Shown here: piece by piece, positions 16,526-21,879 of the stretch
Numbering within the stretch: position 1 is the stretch's first letter
How the letters are laid out: each line of letters opens with the position of its first letter
Assembly: GCF_003544915.1 (NCBI RefSeq)
Contig: NZ_CP032097.1
Span: 1,054,001-1,118,000 of the forward strand
Direction of reading: 5' to 3'
Origin: Arcobacter ellisii
Lineage (GTDB): Bacteria > Campylobacterota > Campylobacteria > Campylobacterales > Arcobacteraceae
Length of the DNA stretch: 64,000 bases
Translations under genes and position numbers: made by a program
Notes under the pieces: model-generated
The model's input: only the letters and a program-made list of their open reading frames with translations
Database searches by the model: none
What the model was told of the DNA's origin: nothing

Positions 16526-18781
16526 TCATTTTTTATTTATAAATTTTAATAACTCATCTTTCTTTAATGGTTTTGAATAATAATAACCTTGAAACAAAGT
16601 TGTTCCATAAGATTCTAATAAATTCTTTTGTTCTAATTCTTCAATTCCTTCTGCAAGAATTACTAAATCTAAATTTTTACCTATTGAGATAATATTTTCA
16701 ATCATTTTTTTTGAACTTGAGTTTACTAAGATATCATCAACAAATGATTTATCAATTTTTAATTCATCAATAGGAAGTTTTTTTAATAAACTCAAAGATG
16801 AATAACCAGTTCCAAAATCATCTAAAGAGATTTTTATTGAGTGTTGTTTGAACTCTTTTAAAAGATTAATAATATAATCAATATCCTCAATACAAACATT
16901 TTCAGTGATTTCTAAAGTCACATTTTTTATATCAAAACCACTTTTTTTAATCATATTTAAAAGTTCAGTATTAAAATCTTTTTCAATAAACTGTTTTACA
17001 GAGATATTTATTGATAATTGAAATTTTTTATTACAAAGTTTTTGTATTTCACAAATCTCTTTTAAAGAGGTATTTATAATAAAATCACCCAATTTTTTCA
17101 TAAATCCTGTTGCTTCTGCAATTTCTATAAATTTATCAGGAGAAACAAAACCTAAATTTTTATTTTCCCATCTAACTAATGCTTCAACTCCATACAAATT
17201 ACCATTTATATCTATTTGTGGTTGATACATCATATACATTTCATTATTTTTTAAAGAACTTTTTAATTCATATTCCATCAATAGTTTTTTAATATATATA
17301 TCTTTTACAGAATCTTCAAAAATAGTATATTTGTTTTTTTCTTTTTTTGATTCATACATTGCAATATCTGCATAACGTTTTATTTCATTAAAATTTTCTG
17401 CATTATCTGGATATCTTGCTATTCCAATACTACAACTTAACGTAAAAGTAACAGAGTTTATATTATAAGGTTGGCGTAATGATTTTAAAATTTTTGAAGC
17501 TAACTCTTTTATATTTTCTAAATTTGTGTCATATACAATAAAAATAAATTCATCTCCACTATATCTAATTAGATAATCATTACTATTTTTAAGTTCTATT
17601 AAACGTAAACTTATCTCTTTTAAAACATCATCTCCATAATTATGTCCATGACTATTATTTACACTTTTAAAATTATCAACATTTATAAAAAAAAGAGAAA
17701 AAGGTTTGTTTTTTTCAATTTTAAATTTTTGAATAATAAATAAACGATTATATAAGTTTGTTAAGTAGTCGTGATAAGCTTGAAATTCTAAAGCTTTTTG
17801 TTTTTTCTCTTCACTATGATTAATTACACTAAATAAATAATATAAAATAAAGTAGATAATAACTAACAAAATAAATAGATAAACTAATTTTTTAAAAAAC
17901 ACTTTATTAACTTCATTTATAGGTATTTGTGTTATTACCCATAATTCATAGGCTTTTAAATATTTTGAAGATACTAATTCTATATCATATGAATTATAAT
18001 TTTTAGATTCAAAAGTTATAACTTCTTCACTATTTTTTATCTCTTCAACTGATTTATTATATTTTTTTTCAACACTTTCTTTTATATTTTCTAAAAGTTC
18101 TTTTGGAACAGGTTTTTCATAAGGATTATTTTTTTCATTAACATTTTCATTTTCATTATAAATTTGATAAAAATAGTCAAATCCTCTAAAAACATGGTGT
18201 TTATATTTTTCATTTTTTGAAGAATATTGGATTTTATTTGCATCAATGATTATAGAAAGTACAAATAATATCTCTCCTTTTTTATCTCTTATAGTTTTTC
18301 TAATTGGTAATATAAATTTTTTTCTAATGTCTGAATAATAAGTTCTTCCTAAAACAATACTATCTTTTTGCATTGTATATTCAAAGGATTTTTTTGTCTC
18401 TTCTTTTTCAAGTAGATTAGGAAAATTTTCATTATTTTTATTATTTGTTAGATATAAATCACCATTTGGTTTAAATAAAGCAAATCCTAAAATATTGTTA
18501 TCATTTATAAGAACTGAATTTAAAACCTTTTCAGAAAGATTAATGGATTGATAATTTTTTTCAATTATTAACTGATTTTCTATTATATTTAGTATAGTTT
18601 CATATTGAGAAAAAATTGCACTTAAAGAATTTGCTTTTATTTTCGTAAGATTCTCTTCTTCGACAATAAAATCTTTTTTGGTTGATATATGTGTATTTAC
18701 AATCAAAAAGATAAAAGTTGATACAATTAAAAAAATTATTATATAAAATAATGTCCATATGTTTTTCTGAGAAGATTCCAT
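16526..18781 (-). CDS. membrane GGDEF/EAL cyclic-di-GMP protein
   Basis: 751 aa. A membrane segment at about 12-32 and a second near 285-305 (FILLVIIYFILYYL) enclose a periplasmic Cache-like sensor region. A GGDEF domain (about 345-505) follows, whose signature reads RYSGDEF near 406. The EAL domain (about 520-745) has EALVRW, ITENVC, DDFGTGYSSL and AEGIEELEQ, all intact. It probably hydrolyses, and perhaps makes, cyclic di-GMP in response to an external signal. The first G of GGDEF is S here, which does not by itself abolish activity. Single gene, divergent from the aconitase-like gene. Confidence 0.93.
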   Translation of the reverse strand: MESSQKNIWTLFYIIIFLIVSTFIFLIVNTHISTKKDFIVEEENLTKIKANSLSAIFSQYETILNIIENQLIIEKNYQSINLSEKVLNSVLINDNNILGFALFKPNGDLYLTNNKNNENFPNLLEKEETKKSFEYTMQKDSIVLGRTYYSDIRKKFILPIRKTIRDKKGEILFVLSIIIDANKIQYSSKNEKYKHHVFRGFDYFYQIYNENENVNEKNNPYEKPVPKELLENIKESVEKKYNKSVEEIKNSEEVITFESKNYNSYDIELVSSKYLKAYELWVITQIPINEVNKVFFKKLVYLFILLVIIYFILYYLFSVINHSEEKKQKALEFQAYHDYLTNLYNRLFIIQKFKIEKNKPFSLFFINVDNFKSVNNSHGHNYGDDVLKEISLRLIELKNSNDYLIRYSGDEFIFIVYDTNLENIKELASKILKSLRQPYNINSVTFTLSCSIGIARYPDNAENFNEIKRYADIAMYESKKEKNKYTIFEDSVKDIYIKKLLMEYELKSSLKNNEMYMMYQPQIDINGNLYGVEALVRWENKNLGFVSPDKFIEIAEATGFMKKLGDFIINTSLKEICEIQKLCNKKFQLSINISVKQFIEKDFNTELLNMIKKSGFDIKNVTLEITENVCIEDIDYIINLLKEFKQHSIKISLDDFGTGYSSLSLLKKLPIDELKIDKSFVDDILVNSSSKKMIENIISIGKNLDLVILAEGIEELEQKNLLESYGTTLFQGYYYSKPLKKDELLKFINKK

Positions 18782-18931
18782 GATTAAACTCTTTTGTGAG
18801 AATTATTTAAAAAAATATTTTGTTATTATATCGTTATTTTTTTAAATGTATATATTTTTTACAATACTTTATTAAATTATTAAAGATAATTTAGATATTT
18901 TTATATTTTGAAATTTTAAAAAGGAATAGTT

Positions 18932-21319
18932 TTGAGTAAGTTTGTAAATAGTTTTGTATTTAATGAAAAAAGCTATCATTACTATGATTTAAAAAGAGTT
19001 TTTGAAAAATATCCTATTTTAAGAAAATTACCAAACTCTTTAAAAATTTTATTAGAAACAAATATAAGAAATGTAAATGAGAGCGAATACAATTACATAT
19101 TAGAAACTTTTTTAAAAAGAGATAATCTTAGAAAAATTGGATTTTTCCCAAATAGAGTTGTTATAAATGATAACTTTGGAATATCAATTTTAAAAGAGTT
19201 TCTTCCTTTGAAAGAAAAATATCAAAATATAAATCCAACTATTACAACAGATTTAATTGTAGTTGATAATAAAGATGAAAAAGAAAAGTCTAATATCTTA
19301 AAATCAGCATTAGCAAGATTTGAAAATTTTTCTGTAATCTCTTCAAATAATCAAGATTTTACACTTATAAATTTAGAATATTTATCAACAATGTTATATT
19401 CAAGACAAAAAGATAATAATATATTTTTATTTCCAGAAACTTTAGTTGGAACTGATACTCAAGTTAGTATGACAAACTCTATAGGAATATTAGGAATAAA
19501 ACTAAATGAGATAGATATAAAATCTGCAATATTAGGTTCACCAATAATTTTAGAGTTTCCAAGTGTTGTAGGAATAGAGTTATTTGGAAATATAACTTTG
19601 GGTGTAAGTATAAGTGATATTGTAAATGCCTTAATAGAGACATTAAAAATAAGTGATATAAAAAACAAGATAGTTGAATTTTATGGAATAGGTTTAAAAA
19701 ATATCAGTATAGAAGATAGAGTTACTCTATCAAATGCAATTATAGAGTTTGGTGCAGTTTGTGGATATTTTGGAATGGATGAAAATACTCTTTCTTATGT
19801 GGAAAAAACAAGAGGAGTTGATGCAACATTGATAAAAGAGTATTTTATCAAACAAGGTATGTATGATAATCAAGATTTAACTTACGATGAATACATAAGA
19901 TTTAATCTTTCAACAATTAAACCCTCAATAGTTTATAAAAAAGGATTTGAAAGAATTGAAGTAAAAGATGTACCTTTAAAACTTGATTCTTTTAAAAAAG
20001 GAAGAGTAGTAAAAGACAATGATATCTTAATAGCAACTATATCATCAAATTCAAGCTTAACACTTTTGATAGAAGCTTGTTTAGTTGCAAAAAAAGCTTA
20101 TGAATTAGATGTAAAGATAAATAAAAACATAAAAATATTTTTTGAATTAAACTCTTTACAAATAAAAGAGTATTTAGAAAAACTAGACTTGTTAAAATAT
20201 TTTGAGTATTTAGGTATAAAAATAGTAATAGAGAGTTCAAAAGAGTTAAATGAAGAACTAATCTTGGACATAGAAGAGTTTAACCTAAATGTTGTATCTA
20301 TATCTTCTTTAGATGAGAATAACATTAATAGTAAAATAAAATCTTCTTGGATTATGTCACCAGCTTTAGTATTAGCGTATAGTTTAAAAGGAAATATAAA
20401 TTTTGATATAACTAAAGATACTATATATCAAGATATTTGTTTAAGTGATATATGGCCTAGTACAAATGAAGTAAATAATAAGTTACTAAGTATAGATTCT
20501 TCTTGTTATCAAAATAAATATAAAGATATCTATATGAAAAAAGAGACTATTGAAAATCTAAAAGATATCTCTTTTGATAAAAAAATATTAGATATGTTTG
20601 AAGAAAAAGAAGAAGAGTACATAAATATAAATGAAGCAAAAATATTGGCAATTTTTGATGAAGAGATAACTACAAAAGATATAGTACCTTATGGAGAGAT
20701 AACGCCATATACTCAAGTTGGATTTTATCTTGAATCAATAGGATTAAAACCAGACCAATTTGGAACTTATGAAAAAAGATATGATGATGTTGAGGTTTTA
20801 AAAAGAGGTCTATTTTCAACAAGTAAAATAAAAAATAAAATAGTATTTCCAAAAGAGGGTGGATACACAAAAGATTTTGAAAATAAAGAGATAGTTACTA
20901 TTTATGAATATGCACAAAAAATGAAAAATCAAAATAAACCATTGGTTATCTTATCAAACAAAAAATTTGCAACTTCATATAATAATATTCAAGCAATTAA
21001 AGGTTTAAAACTTTTAGGTATAAAAGTAATAGTAGCAAAATCATTTGAGAAGAATTTTAAAGAAGATTTGATAAAAGTAGGGATTTTACCTCTTGAATTA
21101 ATCGAAGATGATTTAAAAGAGCTAAAAGGTGATGAATTAATAACTATTAAAACAACAGATTTAAAAATAAATTCAAAATTTGAAATAGAAATAAAAAAAG
21201 CTGATGAGGTAAAATATCTAAAAGTTTTATCAAGACTTGATAATAAACTAGAGCTTTTATATTTTAAATATGGTGGTATATTAAATTATCTAATAAAAAA
21301 ACAATTAGGAAAAATATGA
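18932..21319 (+). CDS. aconitase-A-like protein lacking cluster and catalytic residues
   Basis: 795 aa, TTG start after AAAAAGGA. It aligns by eye with AcnA/IRP aconitases over its whole length: VGTDTQVSMTNSIGILG, EDRVTLSNAIIEFGAVCGYF, IMSPALVLAYSLKGN followed by SDIWPSTNEV, and RGLFSTSKIKNKI followed by FPKEGGYT. The iron-sulfur ligands are gone. The SCTNT segment reads ISSNSS (near 367), and the GCTTCIGNSG segment is replaced by a charged stretch near 430-465. The DSH histidine is Q, and the GSSRDWAAKG segment reads ATSYNNIQAIKG. It cannot be a normal aconitase. The frame is intact and has a coupled downstream gene, so it is probably a functional pseudoenzyme of unknown role. Confidence 0.85.
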   Translation: MSKFVNSFVFNEKSYHYYDLKRVFEKYPILRKLPNSLKILLETNIRNVNESEYNYILETFLKRDNLRKIGFFPNRVVINDNFGISILKEFLPLKEKYQNINPTITTDLIVVDNKDEKEKSNILKSALARFENFSVISSNNQDFTLINLEYLSTMLYSRQKDNNIFLFPETLVGTDTQVSMTNSIGILGIKLNEIDIKSAILGSPIILEFPSVVGIELFGNITLGVSISDIVNALIETLKISDIKNKIVEFYGIGLKNISIEDRVTLSNAIIEFGAVCGYFGMDENTLSYVEKTRGVDATLIKEYFIKQGMYDNQDLTYDEYIRFNLSTIKPSIVYKKGFERIEVKDVPLKLDSFKKGRVVKDNDILIATISSNSSLTLLIEACLVAKKAYELDVKINKNIKIFFELNSLQIKEYLEKLDLLKYFEYLGIKIVIESSKELNEELILDIEEFNLNVVSISSLDENNINSKIKSSWIMSPALVLAYSLKGNINFDITKDTIYQDICLSDIWPSTNEVNNKLLSIDSSCYQNKYKDIYMKKETIENLKDISFDKKILDMFEEKEEEYININEAKILAIFDEEITTKDIVPYGEITPYTQVGFYLESIGLKPDQFGTYEKRYDDVEVLKRGLFSTSKIKNKIVFPKEGGYTKDFENKEIVTIYEYAQKMKNQNKPLVILSNKKFATSYNNIQAIKGLKLLGIKVIVAKSFEKNFKEDLIKVGILPLELIEDDLKELKGDELITIKTTDLKINSKFEIEIKKADEVKYLKVLSRLDNKLELLYFKYGGILNYLIKKQLGKI

Positions 21320-21879
21320 ATTTTAAAATAGCAACAATAGATGATATAGAAAAAGTTTTAGAGTTACATGCAAAATATCAAATAGATACAATAAATGAAG
21401 AAGATAAAAAAGATGGATTTATAACAACTGCTTTTACAAAAGAGCAAATGATTGATTTGATAACAAAAGAGCAAGGTTTATTTATTGCAGTTGAAAATGA
21501 AAGAGTAATTGCATATGTGATGAGTGCATGTTGGGATTTCTGGTCAAGATGGCCAATGTTTGTTTATATGATAGAAGATTTAGAAAATTTAGAATATATA
21601 GGACAAAAATTAACTACAAAAAATTCATACCAATATGGACCAGTTTGTGTGGATAAAGAGTACAGAGGAAAAAAAGTTTTAGAAAAACTTTTTGATTTTG
21701 CAAGAATTAATATGGCAAAAAGATTTCCTATTTTAGTAACTTTCATAAATAAAATAAATCAAAGGTCTTATATAGCTCATACTAAAAAAATAGGACTTGA
21801 AGTTATAAAAGAGTTTTCTTATAACAACAATAACTATTATGAATTGGTTTATGATACTTCTAAAAAACTTTTAGATTAA
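21316..21879 (+). CDS. GNAT-family acetyltransferase-like protein
   Basis: 187 aa. ATG overlaps the stop of the aconitase-like gene (ATGA), so the two are co-translated. The fold is a Gcn5-type N-acetyltransferase: an IDDIEKVLELH start, LFIAVENERVIAYVMS strand pair, and the CoA-binding block YGPVCVDKEYRGKKVLEKLF. The usual R-x-x-G-x-G/A is RGKKVL, so acetyl-CoA binding may be altered. The substrate is unknown. It ends at a strong terminator. Confidence 0.78.
   Translation: MNFKIATIDDIEKVLELHAKYQIDTINEEDKKDGFITTAFTKEQMIDLITKEQGLFIAVENERVIAYVMSACWDFWSRWPMFVYMIEDLENLEYIGQKLTTKNSYQYGPVCVDKEYRGKKVLEKLFDFARINMAKRFPILVTFINKINQRSYIAHTKKIGLEVIKEFSYNNNNYYELVYDTSKKLLD

Follow-up and report, generated by a model that had tools for sequence, protein, structure and literature searches.

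Can the regulatory role of an apo-aconitase exist in a bacterium apart from any enzyme function? This question is raised by a frame in a stretch of 64,000 nucleotides of Arcobacter ellisii DNA (hereafter the window), which reads as an AcnA-type aconitase over its full length and has lost its cluster ligands and most of its active site. We name the clade to which its product belongs AcnP. As detailed below, we think it probable, although by no means assured, that AcnP is a maintained, AcnA-derived pseudoenzyme that rests in an open shape and whose cleft binds another macromolecule.

A full-length AcnA homolog and its active site

The open reading frame at 18932-21319 begins with TTG and continues over 795 codons without a stop. 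Its product matches Pfam Aconitase (3.8e-50) and Aconitase_C (2.3e-14) as one full-length chain, both above the Pfam cut-offs, the AcnA model PRK09277 covers it from end to end (6e-143), and its best relatives of solved structure are human IRP2 and IRP1 (1e-73 to 1e-76). These results agree with a first-pass annotation of the window, which had described an uninterrupted, full-length AcnA homolog. The scores stay below the cut-offs of the AcnA models, at 477 versus 686 bits for PRK09277, 450 versus 945 for TIGR01341, and 439 versus 905 for PRK12881, and the cut-off of the AcnD model TIGR02333 was missed as well (245 versus 1420 bits). The features of the locus, and three from related genomes that are used below, are as follows, with domain limits of AcnP taken from the domain-3 deletions of relatives and from superposition on IRP1:

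16526-18781, minus strand: GGDEF-EAL protein of 751 aa, between uvrA and AcnP
18860-18931, plus strand: region 5′ of AcnP, with a promoter-like ATTAAAG..ATTTAGATA and an AAGGAA ribosome-binding-type site ahead of the TTG
18932-21319, plus strand: AcnP, 795 aa, TTG start; a cluster-free AcnA homolog, predicted to be catalytically dead
18932-19921, plus strand: AcnP domains 1-2, residues 1-330, as placed by the alignment; DSH replaced by DTQ
19922-20521, plus strand: AcnP domain 3 (approximate residues 331-530); SCTNT replaced and GCTTCIGNSG deleted
20612-21316, plus strand: AcnP domain 4 (approximate residues 561-795); SYNNIQAIKG in place of GSSRDWAAKG; Pfam Aconitase_C at residues 599-723
21316-21879, plus strand: GNAT-like acetyltransferase frame of 187 aa, with a 4-base overlap with the AcnP stop
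L161, 755-2770, minus strand: AcnP relative of 671 aa without domain 3 (in-frame loss of about 200 aa)
L162, 7147-9015, plus strand: AcnP relative of 622 aa without domain 3 (in-frame loss of about 200 aa)
L114, 7989-10637, plus strand: AcnA with an intact active site in genome G061, which also encodes AcnP and AcnB; few genomes of the family appear to have such a gene

We scored 20 active-site residues (e.g., S642, R644, R447, R452, D100-H101, and D165-S166-H167, with R580 left out) in an alignment of the window protein, its relatives, and nine active aconitases, using the residues and numbering of pig aconitase. Three of the 20 residues are kept in the window protein. Gaps stand at all three cluster cysteines (C358, C421, and C424), a short SNSS stretch takes the place of SCTNT, the GCTTCIGNSG site is deleted, D165-S166-H167 reads D-T-Q, and GSSRDWAAKG reads SYNNIQAIKG. 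The loss of the three [4Fe-4S] cysteines and the GCTTCIGNSG block, and that of the DSH histidine and the GSSRDWAAKG loop, had all been noted in the first-pass annotation, and they persist in a proper alignment, which recovers none of the cysteines. Misalignment that hides cysteines is ruled out by the inclusion of intermediates that retain them.

Across the 32 full-length AcnP members, no complete active site is present. S642 is retained in 1, R452 in 4, and D568 in 5 of the 32, while D165 is retained in 26 and R616 is invariant. For the cluster cysteines, the corresponding counts are 4 for C424, 12 for C421, and 20 for C358, and all three are present in L094, L099, and L100, which may still hold a cluster. 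The cysteines were lost several times independently within the clade: A Dollo count, which assumes no regain, gives 8 separate losses of C358, 6 of C421, and 4 of C424, and counts that allow regain give 8, 6, and 3 changes. Retention is lower at active-site positions than at other positions that are invariant in the reference aconitases (0.39 versus 0.59; p = 0.005). We infer from these residues that AcnP catalyzes no reaction.

Distribution, genomic setting, and selection

Close relatives of the window gene occur in 33 of 104 Arcobacteraceae genomes, spread over 8 of 20 genera (carriers by name include Poseidonibacter lekithochrous and P. ostreae), and AcnP is missing from most of the family. 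Intact genes number 32, at about 780-860 codons, and the copy in G122 has internal stops. In a tree of 47 rows, all 32 full-length members group together in a single clade (support 100/100) that is separate from AcnD and from bacterial AcnA, within which the long branch of the window protein (0.77) leaves its exact position unsure. When 397 genomes of the phylum were searched with L100 as the query, the matches listed were known carriers and, elsewhere, sequences that scored near 600 bits, as does the AcnD of the window genome. A scan of genome contigs with the single window protein as the query gave no matches, and the same scan with an alignment as the query gave 24 loci, the nearest being of the Arcobacter/Poseidonibacter type and the rest more distant aconitases.

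In nearly all carriers, AcnP lies between a divergent uvrA and a convergent tauE-cysE-speA-hisS, often with inserted genes, and this single conserved site points to vertical inheritance. The inserts in the window encode a GGDEF/EAL protein, a GNAT-like protein, and a DEAD-box helicase. The GGDEF-EAL protein is unmatched among the neighbors of other carriers, and the overlap of AcnP with the GNAT-like frame was seen, among the loci read, in the window genome only. This overlap had been taken as a coupling that indicates maintenance; it is real, but, being specific to one genome, it provides no evidence that AcnP is maintained, and a conserved operon of the two genes was rejected on the same count. 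Upstream, ATTAAAG..ATTT(A/G)G(A/G)TA recurs about 40 bases before the AcnP start, even beside differing upstream genes, and both this promoter-like element and the ribosome-binding-type site are putatively functional. The start codon is TTG in 25 of the 32 genes (at 18932 in the window, and in relatives from L082 to L112), which may reflect weak, controlled translation. Our search for a conserved partner gene or target of AcnP found none.

We also read the uvrA-tauE site in 20 genomes without a full AcnP match. In several of them, uvrA and tauE are immediate neighbors; in most of the remainder, different genes occupy the site and no AcnP trace is present. G114 contains a C-terminal AcnP piece only, and the site in G113 is cut by a contig end. 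G090 and G092 have frames of 671 and 622 aa in which domains 1-2 and 4 are kept and only domain 3 is missing. Given that AcnP is absent, broken (G122), or reduced (G114) in these genomes, it is dispensable in many lineages.

Where AcnP is present, its sequence is constrained. Quoting NG86 estimates (YN00 was unusable for many divergent pairs), dN/dS of AcnP was 0.06-0.19 in pairs at least 82% identical and reached up to 0.31 in farther pairs with neighbor controls, as compared to about 0.02-0.17 for uvrA, tauE, cysE, speA, and hisS in the same pairs, and dN of AcnP was about two to eight times that of most neighbors. The low dN/dS of the close pairs thus shows that AcnP genes are under purifying selection, although looser than that on their neighbors. 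Values for domains 1, 2, 3, and 4 were fairly even (0.12-0.17), with no sign of a constraint that is confined to one domain. Because dS of the window gene is saturated, the case for selection on it rests on codon-position bias and in-frame indels: Changes at sites conserved among relatives amount to 0.158, 0.089, and 0.263 at codon positions 1, 2, and 3, and all 11 of the 11 indels relative to the nearest relative are in frame. The first-pass annotation had suggested that the frame is maintained, and with family values of 0.06-0.31, far from 1, relaxed selection is not borne out; dN/dS, in-frame indels, and synteny also rule out a recently broken gene. AcnP hence combines the loss of catalytic residues with a frame under purifying selection, the two marks by which we define a pseudoenzyme.

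The window genome (one contig of 2.8 Mb) also encodes AcnB, the separate aconitase that the earlier reading had proposed to look for, as well as AcnD. AcnD, an Fe/S-dependent 2-methylisocitrate dehydratase, is the nearest catalytic AcnA-type paralog of AcnP in this genome (about 25-28% identity), but it lies next to prpF and prpC and keeps all cysteines and 19 of the 20 scored residues. In Arcobacter butzleri, AcnB was read as the aconitase of the tricarboxylic acid (TCA) cycle and AcnD as the enzyme of the methylcitrate cycle (PMC2147049). With AcnB and AcnD both present, AcnP is not needed as an aconitase. We accordingly rejected a housekeeping aconitase, given AcnB, and a methylcitrate-cycle enzyme, given AcnD and the position of AcnP outside the AcnD clade. 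A link between AcnP and isocitrate lyase was rejected as well, since the matches are frames of about 297 aa, many of them close to acnD, and probably represent PrpB. As a side observation, such a short match is present in 32 of the 33 AcnP carriers and lacking in many noncarriers, a distribution in which relatedness and genome size are uncontrolled.

Predicted shape of the window protein

We modeled the window protein, as one member of AcnP, with template-free AlphaFold and a family alignment (pLDDT 85.8, pTM 0.83). The predicted structure is of the open type, in which domain 4 is swung away: It fits the RNA-bound, open form of IRP1 (3snp) with Z = 40.9 and an rmsd of 3.3 Å over 770 residues (TM 0.85), versus 10.0 Å (TM 0.61) for closed holo IRP1 (2b3x) and about 10 Å for mitochondrial aconitase. 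As a control, the true AcnA of a relative (L114) was modeled, likewise template-free, from 23 sequences. This control came out closed, at 2.6 Å from 2b3x over 864 residues (TM 0.91) and 10.6 Å from 3snp (TM 0.64), where the contrast is one between two predictions from alignments of differing depth, with both IRP1 states public before AlphaFold2 training. The modeling suggests that AcnP may be a pseudo-aconitase that stays open at all times and serves to bind a partner; the open shape is probably real, and the cleft would accommodate a protein or RNA.

The probable course of events starts from an ancestral AcnA-type gene that would have resided between uvrA and tauE in Arcobacteraceae. Catalysis would have been lost early, as nearly the whole clade lacks S642 and R452, a loss that was probably permitted by AcnB, which acts in the TCA cycle, and AcnD, which acts in the methylcitrate cycle. 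Without catalysis to keep, separate lineages would then have shed the [4Fe-4S] cysteines independently, with purifying selection keeping the four-domain aconitase scaffold. Once the cluster was gone, domain 4 would be unclamped from the core, yielding an open, apo-IRP1-like resting shape, and this shape would expose the cleft and allow another macromolecule to be bound.

Rival readings and known systems

RNA is one candidate for this macromolecule. Losing any single cluster cysteine turns IRP1 into a constitutive RNA binder (PMC7181819), IRP2 is described as lacking both an iron-sulfur cluster and aconitase activity (PMC4056636), and two further reports describe mRNA binding by apo E. coli AcnB and a post-transcriptional action of mycobacterial apo-AcnA (PMC4150767, PMC7527780). 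By analogy with apo-IRP1, IRP2, and the apo bacterial aconitases, AcnP could be a constitutive post-transcriptional regulator that holds structured RNA in its open cleft, consistent with the fit of the window model to RNA-bound IRP1 instead of closed aconitase, with the closed AcnA control, and with the retention of W782 in 30 and S681 in 25 of the 32 members. The window protein itself, however, has neither of these two residues. Among the IRP1 contacts that we scored (listed from PMC4184891 and PMC7181819), P682 is its sole identical residue, the positions of R269 and K379 are taken by basic residues, and R536, R541, S681, R713, R780, D781, and W782 are gone; across the clade, N439, R536, R541, R713, and R780 are retained in just 4-9 of the 32 members. 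The window protein is moreover acidic (pI 5.6, net −7), so its charge gives no hint of RNA binding, and the two relatives that lack domain 3, which in IRP1 helps to grip the RNA, could hardly use an IRP1-type clamp. With the contacts mostly gone, an acidic protein, and such relatives, RNA binding is only one option among several, and we regard an RNA regulator as rather unlikely. The proposal of the first-pass annotation therefore divides: A maintained, cluster-free relative stands, in view of selection, synteny, phylogeny, the separate AcnB, and the open model, whereas its specific role as an RNA-binding regulator is not supported by the contacts, the charge, and the domain-3 deletions.

Other readings dispense with a macromolecular partner. 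If AcnP were a decaying leftover, heading for loss and tolerated in some lineages, then one would understand the parallel erosion of catalytic residues, the evolution that is faster than in the neighbors, the broken copy, the fragment, the domain-3 deletions, and the clean absences. We nevertheless consider decay improbable, because 32 intact frames persist across deep divergence, dN/dS stays at 0.06-0.31 with every domain constrained, the indels of the window gene are all in frame, synteny is stable, and the upstream element is common to relatives. The retained aconitase fold, the invariant R616, and D165 in 26 of the 32 members would suit a cluster-independent activity or a sensor of a small molecule (e.g., citrate) in a remodeled cleft, but most substrate-binding residues are lost, with differences between members, which leaves no sign of a new active site shared by the clade, and this reading strikes us as quite improbable. 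That AcnP is an aconitase or an AcnD-like dehydratase with an unusual site is scarcely credible: The homology scores and the three members with all three cysteines speak for it, yet the scores fall far under the AcnA and AcnD cut-offs given above, cluster ligands are absent from the window protein, and AcnB and AcnD are present.

The reading that we prefer, a maintained and open pseudoenzyme, has several parallels in known systems. IRP2 and apo-IRP1 of animals share with AcnP a full-length AcnA-type fold without aconitase activity (for AcnP, presumably so), and the open, RNA-bound form of IRP1 fits the window model. Unlike these proteins, AcnP lacks most of the IRP1 RNA-contact residues and, in the window protein, the cluster cysteines; no IRP2 insert was observed, and AcnP, a bacterial clade, seems to be of separate origin. 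E. coli AcnB and Mycobacterium AcnA have the same scaffold, with an apo form as a possible regulatory state (PMC4150767, PMC7527780), but they switch between enzyme and regulator, whereas AcnP would have no enzyme state left, and AcnB is a separate gene in the window genome. Aconitase X (AcnX) shares a distant aconitase-superfamily fold (Z = 7.9), although the structural match is weak and partial and the AcnX family is absent from the sequence matches of AcnP.

Pseudoenzymes and IRP2-like cluster-free aconitases are a known kind, while a bacterial AcnP-like family with a graded series of losses is unreported in the literature that we searched. AcnP might be a bacterial counterpart of IRP2, i.e., a dedicated, permanently open, cluster-free regulator that acts via RNA or protein and derives from a dead AcnA of Arcobacteraceae with repeatedly lost cluster ligands and, in some lineages, a cluster domain that is gone altogether; we offer this more specific reading as possible but doubtful. 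The related genomes contain a graded natural series at one locus, with three cysteines, one or two, none, or domain 3 missing, and the question of a stand-alone apo role is thereby testable by a comparison of members. For annotation, labeling every AcnA homolog as “aconitase” would be wrong in the genomes that carry AcnP.
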